64,000 bases of DNA from a virus (IMGVR_UViG_3300048834_001178:1-64000), one strand, 5' to 3'; shown: positions 991 through 63,243, numbered from the stretch's first letter. Notes: generated by a model from the sequence alone, not told the origin. A program made the numbers and translations.

Positions 991-1676
991 TGACGCGGCT
1001 CCTGTTGCAACGGTTTGGTGCCCGAGAGTCGGAGTGTGCCCTCTTCACGTTCCGCTCGGTCGATGGTCTGATCAAATGGTGCTGACGCGATGCCAGTGAA
1101 TCCTGCGCGGGAGAGAAGGCGTGACAGACTCTGGCAGTCATACGCGAACAGATGCTCGCCGAAACGATCCCGGAAGTGGTAGTTCAGGTGCTCGATCGGC
1201 AACTGGACCTCCGGTGGATGCCATCGTTCCCGAGCCATGCGAAAGTAGTGCGCGTGCTCGCCTTCGACATACGCCCGAATGGCTTTCTCTGTATCCGGCA
1301 CCCCGACTCGGACAGTGCCACCCGGGTTCAGCACGCGGTAGCACTCTGCGAGGACGTGCAGCGCCTCGTCCGGATAGGCGACGTGCTCCAAGACATGCTC
1401 AAGGCGGACGCTGACTAACTGCCCGTCGGAAATGGGCCAGCGGGCACGGATGTCGAACATCACGTCGGCCTGTCGATACAGGTCAGCGTTGATCCATCCA
1501 GGAATGAGGTACTTGCCGCACCCCAGATTCAGCCTCTTGCCTTGGAAGGCCACGCGACGCGCTCTCCAACGACCGAGGCAGTGACGAACCGAGTATCGGA
1601 CCTCGCGCAGGAGTCCACGGAGTGACCGATCAAGGGGCGATCGATGAGTGGGGATCGTGCTTGTGGCAGGCTTCAC
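987..1676 (-). CDS. SAM-dependent class I methyltransferase
   Basis: A 229-residue protein with a class I methyltransferase fold. The SAM-binding motif reads LNLGCGKYLIPGWINAD, followed by an acidic strand (VMFDIRARWP), LEHVLEHV and LNPGGTVRVGVPD. This pattern is common in methyltransferases of polysaccharide gene clusters. I chose a GTG start overlapping the upstream stop as GTGA, preceded by GGAGGTGCGAGC. An ATG 33 codons upstream would lie inside the previous gene. Its own stop overlaps the next gene. Coupling to the glycosyltransferase fusion suggests it methylates a glycan or a glycan-bearing molecule. Substrate not determinable. Confidence 0.82.
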   Translation of the reverse strand: MKPATSTIPTHRSPLDRSLRGLLREVRYSVRHCLGRWRARRVAFQGKRLNLGCGKYLIPGWINADLYRQADVMFDIRARWPISDGQLVSVRLEHVLEHVAYPDEALHVLAECYRVLNPGGTVRVGVPDTEKAIRAYVEGEHAHYFRMARERWHPPEVQLPIEHLNYHFRDRFGEHLFAYDCQSLSRLLSRAGFTGIASAPFDQTIDRAEREEGTLRLSGTKPLQQEPRQ

Positions 1677-45082: not shown

Positions 45083-45112
45083 TTCGCATGCTGATCGGGT
45101 TGGTAGTACAAT
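45083..45112 (+). promoter_or_regulatory. sigma-70-like promoter of the methyltransferase-McrBC operon
   Basis: TTCGCA and TACAAT hexamers are separated by 18 bases. Transcription would begin about 15 bases before the ATG at 45133, giving a nearly leaderless mRNA. It lies in the first clearly lower-GC stretch after the phage genes. Confidence 0.4.
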
Positions 45113-45132
45113 GGCCAGCGAGCATCTCCCGC

Positions 45133-46146
45133 ATGACACCCCCGGCAACCAAGAAACCGCGAGCAAAGACACCCAAGTCATCCCAGACTGGCACTGTTGG
45201 CCCCCGATGGCCGACCGTGGCACTGAACCCAGTTGCCACGCCAGACTCGGCATTCATGAACCGCGAGTTGCGCCGGCACGCATTCTACAGCGACGACCGG
45301 ACTCTCATCTTCTGTGCGGATGCAGCGAAAGCGATTGGCTGGCTGGTCTCCGCAGGTGTGACCGTGGATACCACCGTCACTTCACCGCCCTTCTACGGCC
45401 AGCGGGACTACGGCGTCGATGGGCAAATCGGTTTGGAGTTGCACCCGTCAGAGTACCTGTCCCGTCTGGTGTCAGTCTTCCGAAAGTGCCGCGAGGTCTT
45501 CAAGGAGACCAGTAGCCTGTGGGTCAATCTTGGCGATACGTACTGGAGTGGTCGAGGCGAGCACCGCAGTGGAGAGGCCAAACAGGCAGCGAGGCGATTC
45601 GGACTTCGACCCCAGGACCGCAAGGGCGATGGGATTTGGTGCAGGCCGAAGCAACTCCTACTCATCCCACATCGTTTCGCAATCGCCATGCAGGAAGCTG
45701 ACTGGATCCTCCGCAACGACAATGTGTGGGTCAAACCCAATCCGGTCCCAGACCAAGTAAGAGATCGCTGCTCGATGGGGCACGAGTATGTTTTTCACTT
45801 CGTGACCCAACGGTTCTATTACTACCGTCGCGATAGAGTCGGTCGGCCAAACCCAGGCAAATCGCCCTTGCCACCGTTGGACGTTTGGGTGGTTCCGCCG
45901 TCCAAAGGTAGTAACGGACATCCTGCTGCGTTCTCTGCCGACTTGGTTGACCTACCGATCCGTGCGACAACTCCGCCGAATGGCGTGGTATTGGACCCGT
46001 TCGCTGGAAGCGGTACAACGGTCTTGCATGCCCGCAGGCTCGGCTTCCGCGCGATCGGCATCGACATAAAGCCGGAATACTGTAAGGCGATGGCCGCAGC
46101 CTGCCAAAAGGACCCACCGATTCTGCTGCCGCTCTCTGAGAAGTGA
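45133..46146 (+). CDS. DNA N4-cytosine-type methyltransferase
   Basis: A 337-residue beta-class DNA amino-methyltransferase. Motif IV is TSPPFYGQRDYG (SPPF at 84-87), the form seen in PvuII- and BamHI-like N4-cytosine enzymes. Motif I is LDPFAGSGTT (287-296), preceded by TPPNGVV. The middle region (45-75% of length) holds target-recognition residues I cannot assign. The ATG after the TACAAT box is preferred to one 15 codons upstream inside the promoter. It is followed by McrB- and McrC-like genes, so it probably marks self DNA that those proteins would otherwise restrict. Confidence 0.85.
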   Translation: MTPPATKKPRAKTPKSSQTGTVGPRWPTVALNPVATPDSAFMNRELRRHAFYSDDRTLIFCADAAKAIGWLVSAGVTVDTTVTSPPFYGQRDYGVDGQIGLELHPSEYLSRLVSVFRKCREVFKETSSLWVNLGDTYWSGRGEHRSGEAKQAARRFGLRPQDRKGDGIWCRPKQLLLIPHRFAIAMQEADWILRNDNVWVKPNPVPDQVRDRCSMGHEYVFHFVTQRFYYYRRDRVGRPNPGKSPLPPLDVWVVPPSKGSNGHPAAFSADLVDLPIRATTPPNGVVLDPFAGSGTTVLHARRLGFRAIGIDIKPEYCKAMAAACQKDPPILLPLSEK

Positions 46147-46167
46147 TGCGACTGGAGACAATTGACC

Positions 46168-48186
46168 ATGGGCACGTTTCTCAATGCGGACACTATCAGA
46201 ATCGCGGTTCGTCGGCTCGGCGACTCGCTCGCGCAGACGGGAATGCATGATTTCCTCGTGCTCAAGCGCGCTTCGGTGCTCAGCAAGTCACCGAAGGTGG
46301 TTCTCTCGGAACGAAACCAGCCATTCATGCAGGCGATTGAGCAATTGACTTCGTGCAATGAACCATTGGGCGCCGCTCTCGACGCCTCATGGAATCTGCC
46401 ACCATTCATAAATGTGTTCGGTACGGCTAAGCACAGCAAAGGACCGTTCCGTTCCGCCAAGTTCACTTCGAACGGACCGGCTGACACCGTGAGCAAGTCG
46501 CGTCCGTGGCAAGCCCTGGTGGAAGTGCACGACGAGCGCCCGAGATCCGTTACGTTTCGTCGCGACTATCTACAGCACGCTAAGTCCGTCCTGCTCAAGG
46601 CACAGTCACCGAGTGATGAACTCCCGCGACTCTCCGATGCGGCGATCTGGTTCTTCCGTGCATCCGACATCTCTGCGCTCGCAGCATCGAAGGATCGGAA
46701 CAGCATTCTCGGTGGCATGGTACGCGCATTCGTGGATGCCCTGCACCTCACCAAAGAAGAAGTAGCACTCCTCTTTGTTGATGCTAACGCTCTGGACGCG
46801 TCGGTCTATCCCGAAGTGCTTACCTCCGACTCCGTCGCGTCGCCGATCTCGTACCTTACCCTAGGTAGCGTCGAAGCAACTCCCGTGACCGAGACTGCTG
46901 GCAAGGTGTCATGGGATCTCGCCGTCTCCCTTGCCGCCAAAGAGTTCATAATTCTGACGGGCCTCTCGGGCACTGGAAAAACCCGCGGAGCAATCCGGCT
47001 CAGCGCGGCAGTTACCGCTGGAGCCGCCCAACCGGTCGAGTTGATCCCAGTTGCCGCGGACTGGAACGACTCCCGTCCTCTCCTTGGGTATCGCCATCCA
47101 TTCGGTCGTACGATAAATGAGGCTGGCCAAAGCGCCCTGGCAGACACCTACGAGATCACGCCCGCGCTGCGCCTTGTTTTGCGAGCGAGTCACCCGGACA
47201 GTGAGCGGATTCCACACTTTCTGATTCTGGACGAGATGAACCTCTCGCACGTCGAGCGCTACTTCAGTCCAGTACTTTCCCTTCTCGAAGCGGCGCGAAG
47301 CACGTCGAGGGCGAGCACTATCCCGCTGATTCCAGCAGCCGATACCCAGTTAATCGCTTCGGTGTTGCAGCGTGAGAATCCGAACTCTCTTGAAGCAAAG
47401 GCCGCCTCAATCCAAGCCGCACAGGGGGCCGGGATTGGCATTCCGGGCAATCTGTTCATCGTTGGCACAGTGAATGTGGACGAAACTACCTACATGTTTT
47501 CGCCCAAGGTGCTGGACCGTGCCCATGTAATCGAGGTGGCTTCGATATCGCCGCTCGAGTTTGTGACAGGAACAGGATCCGCCGAGGAGTTGGTTTCGGC
47601 ATCCGCCGCGCTGGAACTGCTCCAGTGGTCAATCGAGCGGCGAGACGAGTCGGAGCGGACAGACGGCGCGGTGGATCTGCTGGAGTCAGTTCATACGGAT
47701 TCTGGACTAGATCCAGCGGTACTCGATGCCATCAAGAATGCTTTGAAGTGCGCGCTCGAAGGATCGCATGTTCTGCTTGGTCCGATCGGCTTCGGCTTGG
47801 GATATAGAGTGGTTCGCGAGTGCTTTGACTACGTCGCAACGTGCCTTCGACTGGCGGTGATCGCAGAGTGGACTCCAGAGCAGATTCAAGCCGCCTGGCA
47901 CCATTGGATAGACCGGGCGATTCTGCAGAAAGTGTTGCCAAAGCTCCACGGCAACCGGCTTCAGTTGACCGGGCCCCTCACTGCCACAATAGCCTTCTTT
48001 TCTGGCGGAACGGCCATCACGGAACCTCGCGCGGCATATCAGATGGCTGGTGGCAATGAGGTGGGCGTAGACGAATCGCTCAAGCTCACCTTCGGTTCGC
48101 CTACCGCTCTTCCTCTCTGTATCAAGAAGCTGTCTCGCATGCTGTGGCGTGTTGAAACCACCGGATACGCGGGGTTTATAGAGTGA
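46168..48186 (+). CDS. McrB-like AAA+ restriction subunit
   Basis: A 672-residue protein. The N-terminal 250 residues are a variable, presumably DNA-reading region with FGTAKHSKGPFRSAKF and WFFRASDISAL. The AAA+ motor follows: TGLSGTGKTRGA (Walker A, 264-275), VELIPVAADWNDSRPLLGYRHPF, FLILDEMNLSHVERYFSPVL (Walker B near 351), and FIVGTVNVDETTYMFSPKVLDRAHVIEV (in part), the McrB signature with its sensor Asn. McrB motors use GTP in E. coli; the base preference cannot be read here. ATG chosen behind ggagaca. GTGA overlap with the next gene. Confidence 0.87.
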   Translation: MGTFLNADTIRIAVRRLGDSLAQTGMHDFLVLKRASVLSKSPKVVLSERNQPFMQAIEQLTSCNEPLGAALDASWNLPPFINVFGTAKHSKGPFRSAKFTSNGPADTVSKSRPWQALVEVHDERPRSVTFRRDYLQHAKSVLLKAQSPSDELPRLSDAAIWFFRASDISALAASKDRNSILGGMVRAFVDALHLTKEEVALLFVDANALDASVYPEVLTSDSVASPISYLTLGSVEATPVTETAGKVSWDLAVSLAAKEFIILTGLSGTGKTRGAIRLSAAVTAGAAQPVELIPVAADWNDSRPLLGYRHPFGRTINEAGQSALADTYEITPALRLVLRASHPDSERIPHFLILDEMNLSHVERYFSPVLSLLEAARSTSRASTIPLIPAADTQLIASVLQRENPNSLEAKAASIQAAQGAGIGIPGNLFIVGTVNVDETTYMFSPKVLDRAHVIEVASISPLEFVTGTGSAEELVSASAALELLQWSIERRDESERTDGAVDLLESVHTDSGLDPAVLDAIKNALKCALEGSHVLLGPIGFGLGYRVVRECFDYVATCLRLAVIAEWTPEQIQAAWHHWIDRAILQKVLPKLHGNRLQLTGPLTATIAFFSGGTAITEPRAAYQMAGGNEVGVDESLKLTFGSPTALPLCIKKLSRMLWRVETTGYAGFIE

Positions 48187-50126
48187 CCGCAGTCACGTGC
48201 CTTCATCGTGTGCGATTTGGCTGGCCCAACGGCACGTCTCTTGACATCGAGTGGGCCTCGGGTGATGAGGGCCCGGCTCATCCGCTGTCGGCACTATCTC
48301 ATTCGATCACGGGTTGGATCGAACGCCTGCCCGATCAGCTCAGTATTGCGGGTATTCCGGCACTGTCTGTCGATCAGGGGCAGCCATCGAGCCTCTTCGA
48401 GCCAGTGCGGCTTCGCGAACAGACCGACTACACGTTAGACTTTCGTATTCGCGCGAGTCTTCCAGAGGCCACGACTGCGTGGCAGGCCAATCCGTCGTGG
48501 CCGTTGCCTGCTCGGTTCAATGGCGTTTATCGAACGCAGGCACCTCGTCGGTGGATGGTTGACGGCGAGTTTCTTCGAGTCGGTGGCGCCTTAAACTTCG
48601 GGTCATTCGTAGGCGTGGCGCACTTGGAGCTGCCAGACGGAGCGTGCGTTCCGGTCGAAGTCATCTGTACTAAGATCGGATATGTAGACGACTTTCGAGC
48701 ATTGCTTGAGCAGGTGGGGCACGAGGTTGTCGAGCTGCTCTTGACTGTGGGAACTCCCACGGGAATACCGCTTGCGACGTCCGGCGAGCTGAGCGCATCG
48801 CCACTCGCATTTTTGTTTCACTTGCGTTCTCTCCTCGCTTCCCGAGAACTGCCTGATGCGATCGAGTCGATTCTCAGGCGGCCGCATGAGCGCATAGTTG
48901 AAGACCGCAAGGAAGCGTTTGTGTGGGAATTCCGACATCCCGATGTGGCGGCGATGTCCCGTGCGGCTGAGTATCTTCCAGATGTCAGTTTCAGTGCGAG
49001 TAGGCCGGTCTGTCTCCCAGTGCCGCTCAGGTATCACGGTCGCAGCCGCTCGGTGTCGAGGGACACGCAAGAGAATCGATACGTTAAGGCACTTCTGCAG
49101 GATATTGTGAGGCGAGCGGACATCTGTGTTGGCCAGCTTCGCGAGGCAGGCAGCCTAACAGCCATGCGCGAGCTTGTTAGTCATGTGGATCGCATGCGAG
49201 AATGGTTGTCGCGCCCCCTGTGGAGGGAGGTGGGCCCTTTTAGGCAGATGCCGACAAACTCGCAAGTACTGCAACGTCGATCCGACTATCGACGTGTCTT
49301 TGACGCAGACATGCGCTTACACCTTGGACTTAGATTGCCGTGGCTTCCAACCACAAATGACGCGGATAGCATCTTGGGCGACATGCGGCCGATTGACGTT
49401 CTGTATGAATATTGGTGCTTCCTGGTGATTCGGAGACTTGTGGCGTCGATCTGCGGAGCGACGATCGAGCCCCTGGACAGTCTCCTTGTACGCTCAATGA
49501 ATGGCCTTAGCCTTCAACTGGTGCGCGGCAAGCAAAGCAAGACTGTGTTTCGGTTGGCAATCGCAGGGAAGGCTCCATTCCAAGTGGAGCTGTACTTCAA
49601 TCGGCACTTTGCAGGTGTCGCCGGCGCAGTTGAGGGAAGGTCTTACTCCGTTGGCTTGCGGCCCGACATCAGCCTTTGTGTGGAACGCATTCAGGCGGGT
49701 ACGATTGGTGCACGGCACTGGCTTCACTTCGACGCAAAGTACCGGCGAGAGATCGATGTGGCGGCATTAGTAAGCGCGACGCAGGAGTCCTCGGGTGGGC
49801 CCGAGTCGTGCATAAAGATCGAAGAGACCTACAAGCGGGCCGACTTGTACAAGATGCACGCGTACCGTGATGCGATTCTCTCGACTCGAGGCGCGTATGC
49901 GCTGTTCCCTTCGCTAGGTGGAGGCGAGGCTCTGTTTGTCCGAGGTGCATCCATCGCAGGCGCAAAGTTGCCGAGCGTAGGGATGTTCCCATTGAGTCCT
50001 GCGCGGGCAGTGGACCAAGAGCAACCCTTGCGGAGATTTCTATCGGCGGTGTTGTCTCAGATCTCCGATGCGTCGCGAGTGGTTGATGAATACCTTGGCC
50101 CATGCCCGCCAATGACCTCAACGTAG
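48183..50126 (+). CDS. McrC-like nuclease subunit (DUF2357 type)
   Basis: A 647-residue protein. The DUF2357-like region has GVAHLELPDGACVPVEVI...SPLAFLFHLRSLLASRELPDAIESIL, and the central SRPVCLPVPLRYHGRSRSVSRDTQENRYVKALL is the typical 'etre..ntpENrfvk' block. LYEYWCFLVIRRL precedes a PD-(D/E)XK nuclease: SVGLRPDISL (Asp), HWLHFDAKYRRE (DAK) and DLYKMHAYRDAI. It would be activated by the McrB-like motor. Its 3' end overlaps the convergent helicase gene by 70 bases. Confidence 0.85.
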   Translation: MTAVTCLHRVRFGWPNGTSLDIEWASGDEGPAHPLSALSHSITGWIERLPDQLSIAGIPALSVDQGQPSSLFEPVRLREQTDYTLDFRIRASLPEATTAWQANPSWPLPARFNGVYRTQAPRRWMVDGEFLRVGGALNFGSFVGVAHLELPDGACVPVEVICTKIGYVDDFRALLEQVGHEVVELLLTVGTPTGIPLATSGELSASPLAFLFHLRSLLASRELPDAIESILRRPHERIVEDRKEAFVWEFRHPDVAAMSRAAEYLPDVSFSASRPVCLPVPLRYHGRSRSVSRDTQENRYVKALLQDIVRRADICVGQLREAGSLTAMRELVSHVDRMREWLSRPLWREVGPFRQMPTNSQVLQRRSDYRRVFDADMRLHLGLRLPWLPTTNDADSILGDMRPIDVLYEYWCFLVIRRLVASICGATIEPLDSLLVRSMNGLSLQLVRGKQSKTVFRLAIAGKAPFQVELYFNRHFAGVAGAVEGRSYSVGLRPDISLCVERIQAGTIGARHWLHFDAKYRREIDVAALVSATQESSGGPESCIKIEETYKRADLYKMHAYRDAILSTRGAYALFPSLGGGEALFVRGASIAGAKLPSVGMFPLSPARAVDQEQPLRRFLSAVLSQISDASRVVDEYLGPCPPMTST

Positions 50127-52060
50127 TCTCGGCCCTTCGCGATGGCCGTGAGCACACCAGCGGCGTTGCTATGCGGAGACACTTGAAGCACCAGGGTGTC
50201 AATCGCGCGAGTCATCGGAATCATGCCCCATCGCGCGGAAAACCGGTCGGCAACCTCCTGCTGAGTCTCGAACAAATCCTTCGGTCGCCGCAGCCCCTCC
50301 TCAAGCTGTCGCTGCAGCAGACGGTCAAAGTCAAGGCAGACAACAGTCCACCCCTCCAGCCCGCGGCACGATTCGTACTTAACGATTCGAAACTGTTGCA
50401 CATTCTCAGGAAACGTGTCCCTGTTGGCGGCGATCGAGCCGTCCCACACCTGCTCGCCCCATTGCTGAAGGGTTGCTCCGATGCCTGTACTTGTGGAGCC
50501 AGAGCTTCCCGTCACACAGAACAGTGCATCGACCTGCCGATTGCCGGCAGCCTGATGCTCGCCCATGATCCTGCTGTGCACTTGTTGGGTGTACGGTCCC
50601 ACCACCACAATCACGCGGCCACCGAGTACCTCATCGTTTATCGCCATATCCCACTCAAGGTGGGAAGCAGCAACGAACGCCTCAACAAACGCGCAGATAT
50701 TTGCCTTGAGACGTAGCGACTTGCGTAGCGGAACAATCTGCCGGGATTCGGTCGGGGCGAGCAACGTCCAATCACACCGCCCGTCGCGTCGCACGAGCTG
50801 GTCAACTCCATCCGCGACAATGATCCGGTTGGGTCCGAACAGTGCACCCAGAATGTCCCGCTCTTCTGTCGGCCAATCCTGTGCCTCGTCAATGAGCACG
50901 AAGTCCCAGTTGAACAACGACGGATGAGCCTTCCAAGCCTCCTCCTGCTGAAGCGTCTCTCTGGATTCGCCCGCAAATAGCTCTCGAAGTACCAGCTTCT
51001 TCGCTTGAAACTCCTCTGCGGGGAACGGCTCACCCTCTTGGATGGGCGGAGCTTCGCCCCAGGCGGACATCAACTCCCAAAAGAATCTCTCGCTGGTACG
51101 AATGCTGACCGTAGGGTCGTCGAGATTCTCGCGAATTCCCATGAGGTGCATTAGACGGCGCAAGTCCGATGCGAGAGCGCGGTTGTACGTGAGGAACAGG
51201 ACTCGCGCGCCGCGGTCTTCTCTCAGACGGTTGGCGAGCTGCAGAAGTCGCACGGTCTTCCCCGATCCACCTCGCCCGCGGAAGATCAAGAGCTGGCTTC
51301 CCAGCTTCTTCATGTATTCTGGAAGCTCGGGTTCGACGGTGCGCTTGGTAATGCGCTCGATCTTCTGACGGTCTAGAGGCGACGCCTCGATACGTCGTGT
51401 GAAGATGTCAATCGCGTTCTTCACCTCGGTCGCGGCATCATCGCGACCACAGCGAACAAATGAGTTTTGCCAGGGCTTGTGCAGGTCCCGTTTGATGTCC
51501 TCGTGCCGCTGGTTGACGATTGCCCGCAGGAAGTCCTTGGCGGTCACGTCAGCGCCCAGGATATTGCTTTGAACCTTGGGCAATGCTCGAGCTGGGACGT
51601 TCCTCAACCACAGGGCCGAAAGCCAGAAGGGCGACCGAAAGCCCTGGCGCTCGACATACGTCTTGAGAGAGTGCACCTGCTTGAGAGTCTGGTCTGTGGC
51701 ACCGTGCCACTCCACCTGCCCGTTCGCTCGATTGATGTAACGGACAAGTACTTGATTGCCCTCAAACCGGATGGCCTCTGGAGGGTGGCCTTTGACCTCG
51801 ATCGCGATGGCGAAGTTGGACAACCGCGCCGGCCGACTGCGCAGTTCCTCGGCGAGCAGTTCTTCTGGAATGGGGACCACGCCCGTGCAGACCCCGAGGA
51901 CCAGCAAGTCGGTGTCCTGGACCTGGCAGCCGGGCGTAAATGCGCCCACCACAATGCGGACGTCTCCGCGTTCTCCGATCAACTCTTCAAGCGCCGGACG
52001 AAGAGCGAGCGCGGCCTTGTAGTTGTCGCTGGAGGTGTCGCCAAAGATCGAGACGCCCAT
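50057..52060 (-). CDS. NERD-like nuclease fused to SF1 (UvrD/Rep-type) helicase
   Basis: A 667-residue protein. Residues 15-145 resemble a NERD endonuclease: GAFTPGCQVQDTDLLVLG with Asp51, and FAIAIEVKGH with Glu88-x-Lys90. Residues 250-650 are an SF1 helicase: FRGRGGSGKT (259-268), LFLTYNRALASDL, FVLIDEAQDW (DEAQD at 390-394), VPLRKSLRLKANI, ESCRGLEGWTVVCLDFD and MIPMTRAIDTLVLQV. NERD-helicase fusions recur in defence islands. It lies 19 bases after the DUF1998 helicase gene, so it is the last member of that operon. Confidence 0.82.
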   Translation of the reverse strand: MGVSIFGDTSSDNYKAALALRPALEELIGERGDVRIVVGAFTPGCQVQDTDLLVLGVCTGVVPIPEELLAEELRSRPARLSNFAIAIEVKGHPPEAIRFEGNQVLVRYINRANGQVEWHGATDQTLKQVHSLKTYVERQGFRSPFWLSALWLRNVPARALPKVQSNILGADVTAKDFLRAIVNQRHEDIKRDLHKPWQNSFVRCGRDDAATEVKNAIDIFTRRIEASPLDRQKIERITKRTVEPELPEYMKKLGSQLLIFRGRGGSGKTVRLLQLANRLREDRGARVLFLTYNRALASDLRRLMHLMGIRENLDDPTVSIRTSERFFWELMSAWGEAPPIQEGEPFPAEEFQAKKLVLRELFAGESRETLQQEEAWKAHPSLFNWDFVLIDEAQDWPTEERDILGALFGPNRIIVADGVDQLVRRDGRCDWTLLAPTESRQIVPLRKSLRLKANICAFVEAFVAASHLEWDMAINDEVLGGRVIVVVGPYTQQVHSRIMGEHQAAGNRQVDALFCVTGSSGSTSTGIGATLQQWGEQVWDGSIAANRDTFPENVQQFRIVKYESCRGLEGWTVVCLDFDRLLQRQLEEGLRRPKDLFETQQEVADRFSARWGMIPMTRAIDTLVLQVSPHSNAAGVLTAIAKGRDYVEVIGGHGPRYSSTTRDASEI

Positions 52061-52079
52061 GGATGCTCGCCTGTTCCTT

Positions 52080-55000
52080 TCACTGCGCCGCGATGTCTCC
52101 GGGACGCCGGCCGACCCGGTACGGATTTACCGAGCGAACGCCCGGCCCGTACGAAGATCTAGCTGCTTGCAGCACCGGGTGCGACTCGATCCAGAGTGGG
52201 TGCGACTCAATGAGGATCACTCCATCCTTCACAAACCGCCTTCCGCTGCCCTCGTCCGAAGGAGTGAACCCGAAAGCCCGTGCGGGGCCGGCCAACACGT
52301 CACCACCTCCCTCGACCAGGCGCAACCAAGGGTTTTCGAGTCCTTCACGGATGGGCGTCCTCAGATCAACCGTTGTGGCAGCGCCGTCGCGCAAAATGCG
52401 GAGCATGTCGAAGCCCATCCGCCAGTCCAACAGTCCGTGGTACGGAAGATTGCCATACTCCCGAAGGCATCGGGGGCACGATGCACCGCACCCGCCAGCG
52501 TGCTCAGAGGAGACCCACGCCGGCCCGCCGGCCGGAGAGCCCATTGCCATCTCGAACGCGCACTGCAAGAGGGCCTGAAACTGCTGCGGCTCGCCGAGGC
52601 GGGAGCAGTAGCCGGCACCGTTCTCGAGGCAGTCGCACAAAAAGGCCTGCGCGCGGACGGCGCCCGGCTGGCCATATGTCCGGATACCCACGTCGATCTC
52701 ACTCGAGCGAATGTCCAGCAGGATGGCGGCCGCCTTGCGTAACAGGAAGGCGAGGGAGTACCAAGCCGCGCGCCCCTCGGGCCTTCGCGGATCTGCGAGC
52801 ACACCCTCCGGCCAAGCCCCTATGTCGACGAGAAGCACGTCAGTGCGCCGACGGTCGAGCAGGGCCAGCCTGTGGCCGGGGCCGATCTGTTGCCCGAAGT
52901 TGTGGAACCCCGAGTCGTTGCTGGTTGTGTCATCGAACACCGCCCAAGCAGCTCTGCCGTCCTGCTGTACGGGGTTCTGCCAGCGCAGAAGTGTGGAGGG
53001 CTGAAAATCAAAGCCACCCGCGCCACCATTGTCGTTGAGCGTGACAATGCGGTCGCTCACTACGGCCACGTCAGCGTGGGTGCCCGGGATCCTCGTCGTT
53101 TGTGGGACAACACTCAACGAGAGCGACGGCTTGGTCGCTCGGGGAAAGAACTCGAAAAGACCGTCGTAGTCGCGCGGTGAGAAGTTCGAGAAGAAGCCGG
53201 TGGGCTCACGGGCATCAATGAACTGGAACTCCTGCTCACCACAAACGGGGCAGTTCGACTTCGCGGGCGGCGAGCCGGAAGCGGGAGGATCCACTCTTGT
53301 GGGTCCGTAGCCCAAGTGTTGGCAGGCCGCACAGCGACCGATCGTGACGTTTGGCTCGCCGATAGCCGGCACAAAGCCGGGCTTGGCCATTAGCTGATCT
53401 CCGACCGGCACGAGTCGAACAACGCCAGCGGCAGTGTGTACCCGCTTGTCTTTGACGGTTTCGCTTCCGGGTGCAAACTGCCCAATCGCGATGTCCAGTG
53501 CCCGATCGACAGTTCCGTGCTCCGGTGGCCACGGCATCGCGCGAGTGGGCAGTTGGGTATGTAGCAGCCGAATCCTGGTTGGAAATCCGAACATGGGTAG
53601 CACGCCTGCGTGCGCCAACCGCTCACTCAAGGCTTCCTGAGTCAAGGTCGGATCCGCGACAAACCCGTCAATGGCAGGCGGCAATTGGCTTTGAACCCAG
53701 CTGACTTCGGAATCAAGGAATGAAGACAACTCGGTCGGCAGGGTGAGCCGCATCCTCGCAGCAAGCACCTCGGCAGCCGACCGCAGTGCGGCTCCGTGTC
53801 CAGCCATCCAGGCGATGAGGTCTGCTCTCTCGCCGGTCCAGTCCGCCGCGTCACCAAACTCACCGTGAACACTCTCGCCAGCGACAGGAGGTTGGCCGGC
53901 GCGCGCTGCCCGGAAAGCCTGTCGAAGGCACTCTTCCGTCAGAACGCGACGGAAAATGGCGCGATTGGTGGGATCGATGAAGGGAGGCGGCGGCCTGTCG
54001 CCCGTTATCTTCTCCGCGTGCTCAAAGTAGTATGCGTCGTGCGAGCGGCCTCGGCAGAGCGTAACCGCGAGCGAGACTCCAGCACCACGCCTGCCTGCTC
54101 TGCCCACACGCTGCTGGTAGTTGAACCGCTCAGGCGGCATGTTTGCGAGCATGACCGACAAGAGTGCGCCGATGTCAACTCCCGCCTCCATCGTGGTGGT
54201 CACGCTAAGTAGGTCGATTCCGTCAACCTGAGGCAGTTCACCCGGAACAAACACGTCCTGAAACCGGCGTTGGCGGTCGGGCTTGTCTTCCTGGTCTGTT
54301 TGGCCACTGAGCTCCTCAGCGTGGAGTCGAAATGCTTGGCGACGGTCGTCCGCAAGATATGCGAAATAGTCGCTGGCTGATGGACCGTTGCGAGCTGGCT
54401 CCGCCTGCAGCCGGCCTCCGCACTCCACACAGCGACCATTCCCGCGAGCGAAATAGCCAGACCTGCATTGGCTGCACCGGTTGACGATACCGTCCGTCGG
54501 CGGCGTCAGATCAAGCATCAGCTTTTCCGGGTCGAGACCGGGCTTCTTCTCTGTTGGAAGCGCATCGCCGGGGACTAGCACCTGCGATTGCAGCAGAAGA
54601 GCCTCGACGGCAGCGCATTGCGCAGCGTCATTCATGTACGCGGTGGCCCAGGACTTTGGTCCGCTGGGCAGCCCGGGTGCGGCGTTGCCCTGCTCAAAGT
54701 ACGCAGCGCCAACGTAGTTGCGGCGGAGAGCGAGACGCCGGATCACCGATTCGGCACAACCCAGATGCTCGGCACTCTGCCCTGCGATCGACGCGATAGT
54801 CACACGGCCGAGCCCCAACCCCTCAAACGTGCGGGCGCGGTGGGGAAAGAGCACGTACATGATCTCGGCCATGAGACCCCGTCGCATTCTCGTCAGATGC
54901 GCATCGAACAGGCCACTATTCTGGCCCCAACGCTCCCTTGCACGCGGGCCCGACCAATCGAAACACTCGGGCCACGAATAGTCCCGTCTGGACTGTGCGT

Positions 55001-57872
55001 CGCGCCATGACAGAACGTCGCTGCCGCAACCGCCGGGACAGATTCCCATTGCCAACAGACGCTGCCACAGGATCTCGCAGAGCATGTTGATCGGGAACCG
55101 AGTCGGATAATTGCGCAACAGAACGCCACCTTCAGTGCCTGGATCTGAGGCGTCACCGTCGAGCCAATCCCTTAGCTGGTTTGCCGCAACCTGGAACCGT
55201 TCGCGAAACAGGTCTCGAAACGGACGGTCAGCATCCGATCGCGGCAGATCCAGGGCAGTTGCAAAGGCTGGATTCGCTGCCTTTACAAGTGATCGCCGAG
55301 GCTCTTCCTCGCGACACTCAAACCGGACGAAGGACTCGAGTACGGTCCGGAGCTGCCGCGTGCCGCGCACGAGTTCCCCTCGCACAACATCGCGGAAGTG
55401 GTCTTGCTCGATGCCCGCCGAGAGTTTCGCTGCATCGCCGCGGCTGTCAGAGAACACAACCAGCTTCCGAGCACTCTTGCTGGCGATCTGAGCTGGCAGT
55501 TCACGGAGCAATGCCCCTGCAATCACCTGCGCTGCCTTGCTGAAGCCCGTTCGATGGTTGCGTAGCGGACTCTTCAGCCCGTGCTGGCGTTTGCGGAAGT
55601 CCGCATCGCAACGAGGACACTTGTGCGGGAGGGCTTGTGCCGCGAGAGCGACCTGTCCGCCCCGGGTCGCCTGCCAGAGCCAGGCATTGGCCCCACGGGT
55701 GCCGGCTGTGTGGTGCACGTAGCCGCTCCGTTGATCGAAATTCACCTGTCGCCAACTGCACGCAACACCCTGATTTGTCCAGCCGGTATCGAGCGGGGTC
55801 TGATCGCTTGGCCACAGCAACCAATATCGGGCGTGAGTTTGCTGCTGTGCCGCACGGTCAGGAAGTCCTTCCAAGTCGGGTTCGTCCGCAGTAAGGAAGT
55901 CCCGGTCGGCACCATTGACTTGCGTCTTGCGTCGGTGGCCGCCGAGGAGCACATCACCGCACACTTCACAGACAACGACCTCCAACACGCGGCTCCCGCA
56001 GTCCGGACAGGCCAGTGACGGCGCACCGAGCAGCTTTCCGACCCGGGGACGCTCGGGTCCCCGGAACTCTTGAGGTACGCCTGGGCACGCCGCATTGGTA
56101 CACGCCCAAAGGTTGCTGAGGTTGTCGAAGAAGATGTGACCACGGACCGGCTGCAATGATCGACCGGGGTTGGAGGGATCTTCCGCGACCGCAAGCGCAA
56201 GCAGTAGTCCACGAAGCGATCGACTTGGCTCATCGCGATCGGCTCCATCTCGACGGAGCCGCTGCGCGTCTGTGCCAAAGATCCTGTCGTCCACGCGGAG
56301 CACGTCGGTGGCGCGAACATTTGAAAGCGTGCCGGGAGTCTCGAAGTGTTCGTCGCAGGCCGCACGGAGTGCTTCGTGGGCGCCGATGCTACAGAGCGAG
56401 CGACCTAGACGGAGCTTGGCACTTCCAGGTTCCGGTGATGCGCCGGTTAACTCCACCGCGAGCTGCTCTGCGGCGCGAGTGAGTTCATCGGATTGAACCT
56501 CAGGCGGCTCAAGGGTCGCCAATGGATCCGCCTGTACCCGGTCAGCAAAAGTGGCGAGAGCTTCTGCGGCATGACGCACTCTCGATAGTCCTTCGCGCCG
56601 CGGCGAAGTTTGATCAGCAGATATTGGAGCGGCGAATCGATCCGGATCGCGACCGAAGAAGTGCTCCAGGAATCTGTGGGACTCATCTTCCGTTCCAAGG
56701 CTTGCCGAGGTGGCCACGATCCGAAGCTGGTCCGGCCGCCGCGTAAGCCCGAGCCGCTCAAGGAGCAGACGAATCACATACGCCACTTCTGTTCCCGCCG
56801 AACCGCGATATGCATGAAGCTCGTCCACTACGAGAAAGAACGTATGGTCTGGCGATCGCTCAATCCACATCCGCGTCGCATCCCACATATCGTTCTCTGC
56901 TGATCGCATGAGAGCAATATTCAGCATCGAGTAGTTTGTGATAAGCACGTCCGGCGGCGTCGCCTGCATGTCCCAGCGAGACCAAAGCTCCGCTCCTGCG
57001 GCGTCCTGCATGAAGTACCTTAGCTCGGGATCGAGCTTGCGCGCCTCTCCACGCCGAGCGCGATCGTCATCCTGGGATAGCAGCTGGTCGAGTTGATCGC
57101 TCGCGGCAGCCATGCTTCGCAGCCGCGGCCTGAGCTTGTCAGAGAGTTTTCTGGCCTGACTTGCATCGCCGACGCGGTCGGGGCGTGGACCAGCAACTGG
57201 TGTGAGGCCGGTGTAGCGACCGAATGTCACCCGGTTGCCGCCCCGCGCCGTGTCGAGCCAGCGTCGAGTAGTCGGTGCTTCGAGACACTGGCGGAGCCGA
57301 CGCAACTGGTCTTCGACCAGAGCATTTAGTGGATAGAGGATCATCCCACGGACTGCATGTTGGTCGGCAGCAGCCCGTCCCGTCCGTCCCCACTGTTGCT
57401 CCCAGACACCGGCTGAATCAAACCATCGCCGCGGCGCTGCCTCAGGAGTGCTCGCCCGCCACTGGCGGCTCTCCGCGGCGATGGTCGCCAGCAGTGGCAG
57501 AAGGAAGCACTCCGTCTTGCCCGAGCCCGTGCCGGTCGTGACGACGATGTCCTTGCGCTGGAGGATTACGGCTTCGAGCGATTGCCACTGGTGACGATAA
57601 AGCGTCCGACCCTCCCCAAAGATCGGGCTGGCCAAACCCGCAAGGTCCTGCATGCCCGCACCCAAACGTGCACTTGCCTGGGCAAGCGTAAGGCCCGACG
57701 ACTCGTAGACCGGCGTCGGTTCCAGCAGCAGCGGCCGCGATACTGATAGGCGTCCCTGGAGCAAGCGTGCTCGCTCAGCAGCAAGCAGTGGGCTTGAAAG
57801 TGGGAAGGCGGACTGAAGATAGAGTTCATAGACGCGCTTGAGGCGAAGCGCCGAGCCAACGGCGTCGATCAT
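52080..57872 (-). CDS. very large DUF1998 SF2 helicase, DruE-like
   Basis: A 1930-residue helicase starting in an ATGA overlap ([20 protein letters not shown]); the longer frame upstream is shadow. [10 protein letters not shown] (91-100) and [18 protein letters not shown] (Walker A 113-120) precede [20 protein letters not shown] and [20 protein letters not shown] (DELH 350-353). Cys clusters follow near 591-640 and near 1130 ([22 protein letters not shown]). Motifs [17 protein letters not shown] and [13 protein letters not shown], lie near 1220-1270. The DUF1998 end has [20 protein letters not shown] near 1795. This size and layout match DruE of Druantia more closely than DISARM DrmA/DrmB or the shorter MrfA helicases. 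Confidence 0.82.
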
Positions 57873-59230
57873 GACGAGGCCCCCTCTGCAGAGATGTTCT
57901 CGAGTGCGACTTCCAGTTTGGGGGCCAACGAGCGTGCGATGTCGCTCGCAGCAGCGAACAACCTGCCCTTGCCCGGAACCCAGGATGGGAGCTTGCCGGT
58001 CGCGAGCACCAACGGACGCTCGTAAACCCTTGGCCACGGCTGGTCGACCGGAATGATGAAATCGCTGTCGCAACAAAAAGCTCGGAGGCCAGACGATCGC
58101 TGTGCCAAGTAGCTCATGCCATACCAGTCACAACGCGTCCAAGCACCGGCCCCGTCGCAGTAGGCCCGAACGACGGTGGTGTAGCCATGACGGAAGGTCA
58201 GGCGGTAAAGCCCTTCGCCCACCGTCAGTTTGCCGTTGGACATTTCTGGCCGGACAGTCGCTGCTTGACCTTCAACGGCCAATCTCTCGACGGCCTCAGT
58301 CGCGGCAAGATCCGGGTGGTAGCTGTTGCGCACGTTTGCGTACCACAGGTCCCAGGTGGGGAAATGGGCAGCGAGTTGCCTGCATGCATCCCCAATCAGT
58401 GGAATCTGCACGGCACCGATCGTCACTGACCGAGTCGCCAACTGCTCAGTGCTCGGTGAGAGCGTCACAATCGTTGGGCCGCCGCGTTGTGGCAGGCGTT
58501 CCATGGGCAATACTGCAGCGAGCTGCTCGAGCAGACGGTTGCAGCGTTGGCCACACAAGAACCAACCACCGCGAACGTCGCCGACGATCACAGGGGGAGT
58601 CACCGCCCACCGGTTGCCGTCCGCCGATACCTCGATGTGCCCGAGGAGTTGAAGGCGTCCAAGCACATCTCCAGTCTTCGTTGAAGCGTCCAGTCCAAGC
58701 GAGCGGCAGGCATCAGCGAACTGGGTCCAGGTGCCTGACACCTGAACCGAGAGCCATGCCAAGAGGCGATCGAACCTGATCGTGACTGCTTGGTTTTCCA
58801 CCGCTTCGGTCGCCCGAGCCTCTGCATCTCTGGCAGACTCAACGTCCGCGGGATCGGGTGGCGGCGCTCGCTCGATGTGCAGAATTGGATCCCCGCTGAC
58901 GAGCGATTCCTGCGTCCAGTTCACGGCCTGCGCTTCAGGTAAGACCGAGCGGGATACGTCTCCGGGCGAGATGAGCCGAAACCCGAGTCGCTCGACGAAC
59001 GGCTCTGCATCAAATGGGGGTTCCGGCACGGTCGCTCCCCCGTGCGGACGTGGATCCGCAAAGCCGATCGCGCAGTAGACGCCATTGCCAGTCCTAACCC
59101 GTCCCCAGGATTTCTCCAGACGTATTGAGTCAATCTCCTGCAGACATCCGAGGCGGCGCGCAGTCTCTCGAATTCGGGATGGCAGGTCACCACGTTTGGT
59201 CAGTTGCCCCACGAGGTACCAGGTACTCAT
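57869..59230 (-). CDS. unknown protein coupled to the DruE-like helicase
   Basis: A 453-residue protein overlapping both neighbours by ATGA. I recognise no family. Visible: [44 protein letters not shown], a helical centre ([23 protein letters not shown], followed by [21 protein letters not shown], a winged-helix-like pair), [22 protein letters not shown] and a beta-rich C-terminal third ([43 protein letters not shown]). Type II Druantia has two accessory genes beside DruE; by position this could be one, but I cannot confirm similarity. Confidence 0.75.
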
Positions 59231-61056
59231 TGGCCGACCTCCGCTTCAGTGCATGCGGGGGCCGCCTCGCATCTGGGGCCACACAGTCTGAGTGCCTCCG
59301 CTCCGCCGGCAATGGATGTCCAGAGTCCGGGGGACGGTGCTTCGATCGCAAGATCCTTCCATGCGCGCACTACGAGGCGACGCTGACAAAGCTCTCGCTC
59401 GTCGCCAGGCTCTCCGGAGAGCCCTTGGAGCACATAGAGTCCGGGACGCAGCTCCGTAGGCAGGCGGAACAAATGACCTCGCCTACCCTGCAGCTCTCGA
59501 GTGTCTTGGGAAGCAGAACTGTCCAGCGGCGCAATTCGAAGAATGAGCGGGTCGGCTTCCGTGACGATCGAAATATCGGGTAGACAACCTTCCATGAACG
59601 CGCCCCTCTCGTCAGGGGCACGTAGACCCAACTCGAATCGGATGGTGTCGCTGGCTTCAGGGGAGAGCCGGAGGTAGAGCTCTGGGTCCACGCCGGCCGG
59701 GGCTTCTGAGGGCCATGGGCTAAGGAGTATGCGGCAACGCCTGTATTCTCGCCAACCAGGCATCGCTTCCGCAATTCCTTGCCAGTCGAAGAATCCAAGA
59801 TCCTTCAATCGCTGCAGCGACGCAATGACCGCGTCGGACCGTTGGCTATCCAGTCGGACCACGACCATCACACGTTCATCCGGGTCAGGCTTGCGATCGC
59901 TCACGAGGAGCTGGTCGGTTGGTGCGGTGGGATCTGGTGCCAAGACCCAGAACTGACGGTCCGGCAAGTCGAGGCTCACAACTCCTGGATAGTTCTCCAC
60001 TACGTAGCTTGCCGGCGCGAGACTTGGAAGCGGCTCGCCGATCGGTTGAAACCACTGCGGATCCTCGGAAGCCAACAAATCCCACGAGCGATCATGGATC
60101 ACTACTCTGCCGCCAGAGTAGTCCCTTCCGCGCCTCGGACGCGCAGGCCGCAGGCGGTACTCGACGGTGCCGTCGAGCGCGGCCTCTCGAACAAGTCCTG
60201 CGGCGACAGTTGGTCGAACTGAGCGCGTATCGATACCGGTAGCAATGGCGGATGCGTCTGAGCCGGTCACCGCCAGCGTGTAGACCTCGAAGCACTCCGC
60301 AAGGAACGCCTCCCGGAACGCTGCTGGGAATCGATGGCCTCCAACTCGGTCCCGGCCGAGCACGCGATCGGTGATCCCCTGCCAAAGGTGCGGAGCTCTC
60401 TTCACCCGCTGCCTAAGCCAGAAGTCAAACGCATCCTGATCGAGAAACGCGGACAACTGCCTAGCTTCGAGCGCGGGTCCCAGCACATGCTCAATCAAGT
60501 ACACTTTCTCTGATCTGCTAAGCGTTGCCTGACTGATGGGGTACATTCGGAACTTCTCGCGTGGACCCTGTCCACGGCGCGCGGTGGGCGCATACCCCTG
60601 GGTCAACAACCAAGAATTCCACACTTTCCAGAGCGGTTCTTCACACTTCTCGCCCGGGGGCATCTTCAGGTCCTGACGATTCTGCGCCGGCTGCGGTCTC
60701 AGCGGCCATAACAGCTTCGAGAGCGAGAGGTAGAACCTGTCATCGCCGGCTGCCCCTCGTTCGCCCGCTGCAAGCACCAGGAAGGCGAGGAACCCGACGC
60801 CTAGCGGCCGACCAGACACGTCTACGCCTTCGATGGTGCGGACACTGATTCTGCCGTCCACAACGCACCGGTCTCGTACCGCAGCGACGAACTGATCCCG
60901 CGCCGATGGACCATCGCAGAGGCCACAGGAGACCGCGATCTCAGACAGACGCTCGGCGTCGATGGCGAGAAAGACCGGCTCATCGATCATGCAGCCATCG
61001 ATCACCGCGGAGATGATCGCGTCGTTCCATCTGAGGTATTCGTCAGGAGTAGTCAA
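59227..61056 (-). CDS. unknown protein heading the DruE-like operon
   Basis: A 609-residue protein. A TTG start (TTPDEYLRWNDAIISAVIDG) behind ggaagga is preferred; the in-frame ATG 98 codons upstream adds low-complexity residues. No family recognised. It has an N-terminal helical part, MPPGEKCEEPLWKVWNSWLLTQGYAPTARRGQGPREKFRMYPISQATL (in pieces), SEKVYLIEHVLGPALE and DQDAFDFWLRQRVK. The C-terminal third is beta-rich (YLRLSPEASDTIRFELGLRAPDE, LRPGLYVLQGLSG), perhaps Ig-like. The phrase 'WnsWLltqGy...r.Gqgp.ekFrMYPisqatLs' suggests a conserved, specific family. Confidence 0.72.
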   Translation of the reverse strand: MTTPDEYLRWNDAIISAVIDGCMIDEPVFLAIDAERLSEIAVSCGLCDGPSARDQFVAAVRDRCVVDGRISVRTIEGVDVSGRPLGVGFLAFLVLAAGERGAAGDDRFYLSLSKLLWPLRPQPAQNRQDLKMPPGEKCEEPLWKVWNSWLLTQGYAPTARRGQGPREKFRMYPISQATLSRSEKVYLIEHVLGPALEARQLSAFLDQDAFDFWLRQRVKRAPHLWQGITDRVLGRDRVGGHRFPAAFREAFLAECFEVYTLAVTGSDASAIATGIDTRSVRPTVAAGLVREAALDGTVEYRLRPARPRRGRDYSGGRVVIHDRSWDLLASEDPQWFQPIGEPLPSLAPASYVVENYPGVVSLDLPDRQFWVLAPDPTAPTDQLLVSDRKPDPDERVMVVVRLDSQRSDAVIASLQRLKDLGFFDWQGIAEAMPGWREYRRCRILLSPWPSEAPAGVDPELYLRLSPEASDTIRFELGLRAPDERGAFMEGCLPDISIVTEADPLILRIAPLDSSASQDTRELQGRRGHLFRLPTELRPGLYVLQGLSGEPGDERELCQRRLVVRAWKDLAIEAPSPGLWTSIAGGAEALRLCGPRCEAAPACTEAEVGQ

Positions 61057-61789
61057 AGTCCTAGTCCTTCCAGACGAACCCGGGTCTGCCGTGGTGCACA
61101 AAGGAAGTGGCCATCGGCGATGTGGGAGTTTATGGCCTGTTGGGGGGGAGGTGACGCACAGACGATTTCCATTCGCACATCCGAACATCTCCCTTCCGCG
61201 ACTCCCACGTAATCGTCGCCCACTCTTGTGCCGCGTCTCGTACTGTGGACAAAGCGGGGGGACCGGCATTGTGCACTCAACATGGCGGTCGACTCCCTCA
61301 CTTCGCAAAATGGCGCTTCGGGCGGTCGCGAGCACAGCCTCTTCACGCACAGCTTTCGTGAGAGTCTGCAGGGGAAGCTCGAGGGACTTCTGACACGCCC
61401 AACCGTCGCGAAGAGCCGCAGCGTGCGGTGCTCGTGGTCACGCTGTTTAACCCCGTGCGACAGAAGCCCGTACACGACGAGGTTGTGAGAGCGATGCGGA
61501 CGTCTCGGTGGTCCACCTTTGATCTTCAGGTCAGTCCGCGGATTCAGGCTCGGGCACGCGGTTAGTGGTCGATCTTGACGCCCGTGGCCAAGCAGAGCCA
61601 AATCTGGCTCGAGAATGCGGTTGCCGAACTGATCATCCATCACCAGGCCAGATTTCGATGGCTCCGTTTACCCGGAGATCCTCCGGACCGCTTCCCAAAG
61701 CCGCCTCGGACTCTCTCTGGGCAGTCGGAGGCACTAACGACTCCCGAAAGCATGCCGAGTTCGAGACACCCATCCGATCGGAGTTTGCA

Positions 61790-62115: not shown

Positions 62116-63243
62116 ATGCCGCTCTATCGAATGACCCGCGACGAGATCGCTCAGCTTCCCCCCACGACGTTTGAGGAGCGCCAGCTCCGGGAAACCTCGG
62201 ATCTACAGCGGCTCATCAGAAGCCATATCGAGGTCGTTGCGAGCGATCTACTGGTGATCGCCGAGGAGTTCGCCGAGTGGACCGATTCCCGACGGCGCAT
62301 CGACCTTCTCGCGGTCGATCGCGAGGGTTACCTGGTGGTCATTGAGCTCAAGCGCGGCGAGGAGGGAGGTCACATGGACCTCCAAGCGATCCGCTACGCG
62401 GCCATGGTGTCGAGCATGACCTTTGACAGGGCGAAGGCTGCGTTCCAGTCGTTTCTGGATCGGCACGATCCGGGTCAGGACGCGGAGGCAAGGCTGCTTG
62501 AGTTCCTCCGATGGGATGAGCCGCGGGAAGAGGAGTTCGGGCGAGATGTACGCATCGTGCTCGTCGCGGCGGATTTCTCGAAGGAAGTCTTGACCTCCGT
62601 GCTGTGGCTCAACGAGCGCGACCTTGATATCCGCTGCGTGCGGCTGAAGCCATACTTGCTCGGCTCCGAGATCGTTCTGGATGTGCAACAGATGGTCCCT
62701 CTTCCAGAGGCCGAGGAGTATCAGGTCCGCCTGCGTGAGAAGGCCATCGTTCAGAGGGAGTCGGCCCGACAAGCCGGGCCCACCGGCTTCTGGTTCATGA
62801 ACACGGGAGACGGGTCCGGCGAGGGAAGGGCTTGGGAGGACTGCCAGAGGTACGGATTCATGATGGCAGGCGGCGGTGCACACTGGATCAGCGCGATCAG
62901 GAAGTTGAGGGCTGGTGACAAGCTCTTTGCGTACCTGAGTGGCCACGGGTATGTCGGCTACGGGGTGGTGACACATGAGGCGGTGCCGCAGGCAGAGTTC
63001 GTGCCCACCGGCTTCGAGCAGAAGCTTGTTGACCTTCCGGTCGTTGCGCAGACTCAATTGGATCGGCTGCACGATCCGGATCACTGCGACTGGTGTGTCG
63101 CCATCAGGTGGATCAAGACGTTGGATCGCGACCAAGCGATACTCAAGAGCCGTGCCCGGCGGAGCACGCTCGAGCAGATCCGCAGGCCAGAGTTTGTGAG
63201 CGAGCTGCTCCGTGAGTTCGACCCTGAAGGAGCGACGAGCTAA
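62116..63243 (+). CDS. PD-(D/E)XK nuclease with C-terminal EVE/PUA-like domain
   Basis: A 375-residue protein. The N-terminal nuclease has RRIDLLAVDREGYLVVIELKRG with Asp63, Glu77 and Lys79, and DLQAIRYAAMVS with Gln90, the pattern of NucS/DUF91-like endonucleases. The C-terminal domain (about 222-340) reads GFWFMNTGDGSG...HWISAIRKLRAGDKLFAYLSGHGYVGYG, the look of EVE/ASCH/PUA-fold domains that bind modified bases. A nuclease joined to such a reader suggests cleavage of modified foreign DNA (type IV-like restriction), which is inference. No partner gene; not in an operon. Confidence 0.78.
   Translation: MPLYRMTRDEIAQLPPTTFEERQLRETSDLQRLIRSHIEVVASDLLVIAEEFAEWTDSRRRIDLLAVDREGYLVVIELKRGEEGGHMDLQAIRYAAMVSSMTFDRAKAAFQSFLDRHDPGQDAEARLLEFLRWDEPREEEFGRDVRIVLVAADFSKEVLTSVLWLNERDLDIRCVRLKPYLLGSEIVLDVQQMVPLPEAEEYQVRLREKAIVQRESARQAGPTGFWFMNTGDGSGEGRAWEDCQRYGFMMAGGGAHWISAIRKLRAGDKLFAYLSGHGYVGYGVVTHEAVPQAEFVPTGFEQKLVDLPVVAQTQLDRLHDPDHCDWCVAIRWIKTLDRDQAILKSRARRSTLEQIRRPEFVSELLREFDPEGATS

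Follow-up and report, generated by a model that had tools for sequence, protein, structure and literature searches.

A Druantia type IV operon with a recurrent, uncatalogued nuclease-helicase gene beside druE

The window analysed here is a stretch of 64,000 nucleotides (nt) of viral DNA (IMGVR_UViG_3300048834_001178:1-64000), itself part of a 77-kb IMG/VR record. It carries an operon of four genes (Table 1), of which the first three, encoding DruF, DruL and DruE, constitute a known ensemble, the core of Druantia type IV, predicted to act in anti-phage defence. What is new is the fourth gene, hereafter called H, an uncatalogued and recurrent nuclease-helicase partner of this core. The genes are joined by two ATGA overlaps (59227-59230 and 57869-57872) and a gap of 19 nt separating 52080 from 52060, in agreement with an earlier note made on this DNA. 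The frame of gene 1 stays open up to 61350, beyond the TTG start at 61056; this start is favoured because identity with a sister copy of the operon, described below, drops upstream of 61056. No sigma-70-type promoter pattern was found upstream of DruF.

Table 1. The operon, its genes, the domains of H and the transferred segment (aa, amino acids; SF1 and SF2, helicase superfamilies 1 and 2).
Feature	Position	Strand	Description
Operon, four intact genes	61056-50057	-	all reading frames open and complete
Gene 1, DruF-like	61056-59227	-	609 aa; short divergent form; TTG start
Gene 2, DruL	59230-57869	-	453 aa; 4-nt overlap with gene 1
Gene 3, DruE	57872-52080	-	1930 aa; YprA-family SF2 helicase with DUF1998/MZB; 4-nt overlap with gene 2
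Gene 4, H	52060-50057	-	667 aa; fusion of a NERD-like PD-(D/E)xK nuclease with a UvrD-like SF1 helicase
H residues 1-155, predicted nuclease domain	52060-51596	-	alpha-beta-beta-beta-alpha-beta order (from the AlphaFold2 secondary structure)
H residues 240-652, SF1 helicase core	51343-50105	-	GRGGSGKT, DEAQDW, ADGVDQ, SCRGLEGW, TRAID
Mobile unit	50106-61149		operon with 93 bp of 5' flank and all of H except its last 49 bp

We compared the operon proteins and the scanned flanking open reading frames (ORFs) with the profiles of PADLOC-DB 2.0.0. This is a search that the earlier note had proposed, and three of the four proteins match components of a named type, type IV, gene 1 only weakly, H matching no Druantia model. 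The product of gene 3 scores 1465 bits with DruE4 over residues 1-1849, and at best 1429, 624 and 335 bits with DruE2, DruE1 and DruE3. It was correctly recognised earlier as a DUF1998 SF2 helicase: Pfam finds in it the DEAD, Helicase_C and MZB (DUF1998/MZB zinc) domains. Its relatives in the PDB are 9wae (E=3e-159), a solved structure close to the window DruE, and 9tu7. The two proteins of genes 1 and 2, previously described as unrecognised, do have relatives in PADLOC. Indeed, gene 2 matches DruL4 (E=1.1e-14; residues 154-417, profile positions 4-277 of 309), and gene 1 weakly matches DruF2 (E=1.5e-8) and DruF4 (E=4.9e-6), only its N-terminal 150-190 residues being covered. Gene 1 can moreover be aligned along its length with nine other short DruF proteins of DruF-DruL-DruE (F-L-E) operons from several phyla, and the same F-L-E operon is borne by cyanobacterial plasmids (loci L004 and L005). 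Pfam searches with genes 1 and 2 were empty, profile searches of DruF and DruL against the PDB gave nothing or chance-level matches, and no PDB entry matched the predicted fold of a fused DruF-DruL (L024; predicted local distance difference test, pLDDT, 79) below 1e-3. The Pfam, PDB profile and fold searches thus revealed neither a catalytic motif nor a related fold in DruF or DruL.

In PADLOC, Druantia type IV consists of DruE, DruF and DruL, without DruM and DruG (PMC8565338). The window operon has the large YprA-family DEAD/DUF1998 DruE characteristic of Druantia as a whole and the DruL adjoining DruE characteristic of type IV, and neither DruM nor DruG, the pair that marks type II, is matched by any operon protein or by any of the flanking ORFs that were scanned. 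DruG was also not found in the genome holding the sister copy, in a scan that gave no signal in control genomes either. H as a DruG was ruled out, as it has no DruG match in PADLOC. The operon proteins include no match to DruA-D, which with DruE1 would indicate type I, nor to DruH, and DruE has no PLD domain in Pfam, which sets the operon apart from type III. It is not a Gabija system either: GajA was not found in the operon, and H matches GajB only at E 4e-4. The core is therefore Druantia type IV, an already named type and not a new system. Of the two possibilities left open by the earlier note, a Druantia variant or a distinct defence system, the first is retained; type II, which it took as the nearest type, was a near miss. 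Indeed, the long type II DruF carries a DruL domain as its C-terminus, so that part of the difference between types II and IV comes down to the splitting of one gene.

The earlier note had also remarked that no methylase adjoins the operon, and we found no cytosine methylase there. This absence is normal, since type IV by definition lacks it (PMC8565338). A search for an overlooked methylase nearby returned only an enzyme of the N6/N4 type (45088-46146), belonging to a separate, convergent McrBC-like operon. The idea that the H-containing operon makes up a distinct new system was rejected on the DruL, DruE and DruF matches. That it would have only the DruE-type helicase in common with Druantia is very improbable: the short reach of the DruF match (about 150-190 residues) and the absence of H from the PADLOC Druantia models speak for such a view, and against it the DruL match spans most of the profile and the DruE match the full length of the protein, the F-L-E order is that of type IV relatives, and DruF aligns lengthwise with their short DruF.

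The fourth protein, H, carries at its N-terminus the nuclease signature D51...E88-x-K90...Q128, followed by the SF1 motifs. D51, E88, K90 and the SF1 motifs are invariant across 38 H relatives, and D49 and Q128 nearly so. The AlphaFold2 model of H (pLDDT 88) matches UvrD/PcrA/Rep folds down to E=6e-13, and its residues 1-152 follow the strand-helix order of the PD-(D/E)xK fold, in which E88-x-K90 closes a core strand and Q128 sits in the next helix. No PADLOC Druantia model matches H at E<=1, its best PADLOC matches being weak and on the helicase side. Similarly, the window H has no match to Pfam NERD (PF08378) at E<=1; five of the 38 relatives match it at E<=0.05 (best 4e-4), and hhalign of H with the N-termini of three NERD-SF1 helicases, two of them Pfam NERD-positive, gave 72% probability with the E-x-K strand aligned. 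The label "NERD nuclease/SF1 helicase" given earlier is thus borne out for the nuclease signature and the helicase motifs, the assignment to NERD being weak but reasonable as judged from sequence. H appears to be a divergent NERD-like nuclease-SF1 helicase, active-looking by its motifs. It is not named as a Druantia component in PADLOC-DB 2.0.0 or in the open-access papers searched.

We demonstrated that the operon moves as one unit including H. The 77-kb contig of the window and a 99-kb Phycisphaerae contig (BJHL01000011.1) share a sole common segment, the mobile unit of Table 1, at 93.2% identity over 11,044 bp. The two copies of DruF are 87.7% identical in amino acids (synonymous divergence, dS, 0.55; ratio of nonsynonymous to synonymous divergence, dN/dS, 0.116) and those of DruL 89.6% (dS 0.47; dN/dS 0.126), while DruE reaches 97.9% (dS 0.15) and H 97.8% (dS 0.10). 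With dN/dS of 0.07-0.13, all four genes are under purifying selection. A chance neighbourhood, which the earlier note had allowed for, is contradicted by this second copy, found at 93% nucleotide identity on an unrelated contig with all frames kept. Identity between the copies rises within druE near 56400, a profile which indicates that DruF, DruL and the first part of DruE were exchanged, or diverged, apart from the rest of DruE and H. Such a split is compatible with separate recognition and effector sides; recombination alone could also yield it.

The association of H with DruE is recurrent. Among 84,980 species genomes scanned, we found 161 H relatives, and the best 80 of these were kept. 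Of these 80 loci, 45 contain a DruE-family gene. In 34 of 73 loci DruE lies immediately upstream of H on the same strand, in many cases overlapping it by 4 nt, and in 7 of 77 the next gene downstream is DruF. H co-occurs with Druantia I (DruD1 and DruE1), II (long DruF) and IV. The order F-L-E-H is that of the window and of L009. Type II loci show long F-E-H, in many cases together with a cytosine methylase; type I loci of Alphaproteobacteria show C3-DruD1-DruE1-H; and H-F-L-E is found in Chloroflexota, Planctomycetota, Chlorobiota and others, an H-x-DruE arrangement also being present. No near relative emerged when viral contigs were scanned with H and DruE. Bacillota have a second kind of operon (L031, L054, L063, L074, L079-L081), in which an H-family gene neighbours those of an MzaA-like protein and of a DpdF-like DEAD helicase (C3a193). 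Upstream of the H-F-L-E operons of L018, L059 and L057 lie a TGT/DpdA-like gene and repeated large genes (c14/c17/c18), a context that makes a link between Druantia type IV and 7-deazaguanine-type DNA modification possible.

These loci bear on the reading that takes H for a defence gene of its own, a stand-alone nuclease-helicase that shares islands and a transcript with a Druantia core working alone. This is somewhat unlikely. The H family does exist without DruE, only 2 of 34 unbiased DruE loci have H, and the type IV definition leaves H out (PMC8565338). On the contrary, same-strand DruE immediately adjoins H in nearly half of the loci compared, the transferred unit includes H, and in the tree type II H and Mza-linked H sit on separate branches. 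H proteins from Druantia I, from Druantia II and from H-F-L-E operons group in one clade (99/98 support), with the window H outside it. The window H may have been recruited separately, although its position as sister to this clade is not rejected (approximately unbiased, AU, test, p=0.47). A single clade of all type IV H was rejected (p=0.025), and the H-F-L-E rows do not form one clade either.

To view the association from the other side, we searched a sample of genomes with the DruE4 profile, the genomes of our labelled loci being included in the tallies; type I DruE is under-sampled, because only this profile was used. Hits were obtained in 5 of 337 genomes of Alphaproteobacteria, 7 of 343 of Planctomycetota and 5 of 321 of Gammaproteobacteria, in 17 of 244 in the phylum of the L015 genome (Leptolyngbya) and in 8 of 296 in that of the L039 genome. 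The regions around DruE (L102-L140) were read with purpose-built profiles, which left 34 loci after exclusion of the seed L112 and of four truncated loci. True H directly follows druE in two of them (L104 and L134, both type I). A different, canonical NERD-SF1 helicase takes this place in three (L107, L123 and L128), and a PDDEXK_1 nuclease in eight (L102, L106, L108 and L135-L139), five of which were scanned and all match PADLOC DruK. Altogether, druE is directly followed in 13 of 34 loci by a PD-(D/E)xK nuclease from one or another of these three families, for which the binomial chance at an assumed base rate of 3% is 8e-12. H is thus an optional accessory, present in a minority of DruE loci, and not a universal part. 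In L131 (3900-7051, minus strand), SIR2-pAgo-associated and Piwi-like proteins directly follow a druE.

What DruE itself might contribute to cleavage differs between types. Type III DruE cleaves by its PLD domain and loads on 3' single-stranded DNA (ssDNA), and its structure is solved (PMC13192584), whereas DruE of types I and II is reported to have inactivated Vsr domains at its C-terminus (PMC12458937). By sequence comparison, the C-termini of type II and IV DruE, from loci with and without H, show a hydrophobic strand and then HPLW or similar where an active E-x-K is expected, and no E/D-x-K was found at this position, the window DruE included. The C-terminal nuclease-like domain of the window DruE thus appears degenerate. 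A link between the presence of H and the loss of the DruE nuclease is unsupported, the motif being absent both with and without H.

In the reading that we consider probable, a Druantia type IV system is combined here with a nuclease-helicase encoded in trans; DruF and DruL would sense, DruE would unwind and H would cut. DruF and DruL would form a fast-evolving sensing or activating module that licenses DruE. Once triggered, DruE would load on ssDNA-containing phage replication intermediates, as type III DruE does, and open or translocate them. We propose that cleavage would fall to the neighbouring nuclease because the DruE nuclease-like domain is degenerate; cutting would be handed to an exchangeable PD-(D/E)xK nuclease encoded beside druE, and H would track the exposed strand by its SF1 motor and cleave it. 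A physical DruE-H complex is likewise inferred. A wider reading, held tentatively and at slightly less than even confidence, is that Druantia I, II and IV share a modular effector slot beside druE, refilled repeatedly by DruK, canonical NERD-SF1 helicases and H because DruE lost its own nuclease, and that H is an unnamed true subunit coupling its SF1 motor to the SF2 motor of DruE.

H could instead serve in regulation or in DNA-end processing, in a RecBCD-like or GajB-like manner, the main cut coming from some activity of DruF, DruL or DruE that has escaped recognition. We hold this to be unlikely. ARMADA II likewise ends in a GajB-like helicase (PMC12458937), and a nuclease-free or cryptic-nuclease mode must work in cyanobacteria, because the F-L-E operons there have no adjacent nuclease. 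On the other hand, the catalytic residues D51, E88 and K90 of H are invariant in its relatives, and DruF and DruL gave neither a catalytic motif nor a fold match.

Several points limit the reading that we prefer. The distances of H and DruE are correlated (Mantel r=0.93 for all, 0.97 for type I, 0.98 for type II and 0.86 for H-F-L-E), which speaks for it, but this correlation may reflect shared host descent. In the tree, 27 of 81 H are without DruE, some of them on short contigs. H essential to Druantia in general is ruled out, since most DruE loci lack it; H and DruK are not strictly alternatives, because L039 has both an H and a DruK-like gene; and in the F-L-E operons of cyanobacteria druE has no neighbouring nuclease gene. 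Finally, the DruE C-termini were judged by their residues alone, and PADLOC matches the window DruF at its N-terminus only. The emphasis placed earlier on the added nuclease-SF1 helicase is well founded, H being a recurrent Druantia neighbour outside the PADLOC set, in tight operons, co-diverging with DruE, and optional. Druantia I, II and IV are without a worked-out effector, and a recurrent, intact nuclease-helicase beside DruE, together with the other PD-(D/E)xK nucleases found at this place, makes the question of what cuts the DNA testable; catalogues without H would under-describe these systems.

The operon lies outside a prophage-like block (8912-44231) that encodes a serine integrase, helicase, primase, ParB-methylase fusion, terminase, portal, capsid protease and tape measure, and whose G+C content at third codon positions is about 0.9, compared with about 0.65-0.7 in the defence region. 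It is flanked on one side by the convergent operon mentioned above (45088-50126, plus strand), which encodes the N6/N4 DNA methylase, a PDC-M26A-like AAA protein and a DUF2357+PDDEXK_7 McrC-like nuclease, and whose 3' end and that of H share 70 nt at the junction of the transferred segment. On the other side, just upstream, lies a PDC-S11 candidate defence nuclease (62116-63243, plus strand; PADLOC 398 bits; NucS_C-like). Farther away, near tRNA-Asn (56-128), a gene on the minus strand (1673-7567) encodes a 1964-aa protein with glycosyltransferase 2, methyltransferase and histidine phosphatase domains. In L003 (10064-14094), an SF2 helicase (ResIII/DEAD) is followed by a Prim-Pol/DUF3987 primase-like protein; the pair are perhaps replication genes of a second mobile element.

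Compared with known systems, the operon shares with Druantia type IV (DruE4, DruF4, DruL4) the order DruF, DruL, DruE, the lack of DruM and DruG, and the operon style of L004 and L005; it differs by its short and divergent DruF (609 aa, compared with about 680-700 in the models) and by the H that follows DruE. Type II, as found on an Alisedimentitalea plasmid (L006), has the same F(L)-E-H order with H right after DruE, but its F and L are fused where those of the window are split, it has a cytosine methylase that the window lacks, and its H is about 33-35% identical. DruK is likewise a PD-(D/E)xK nuclease encoded directly after druE; it is, however, a stand-alone PDDEXK_1/Cas4-like protein with no helicase and no detectable sequence kinship with H. 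ARMADA type II (PMC12458937) also has a YprA-family helicase operon ending in a UvrD-like helicase, but its ArmD has a RelE-like domain and no such nuclease fold, and its BrxHII-like and PglX-like genes are absent from the window operon. Finally, Nhi, C3a187 and RTasNERD-Hel have, as H does, a nuclease domain followed by an SF1 helicase; their matches to H are weak and on the helicase side (E 8e-5 or worse), whereas H sits in a Druantia operon.

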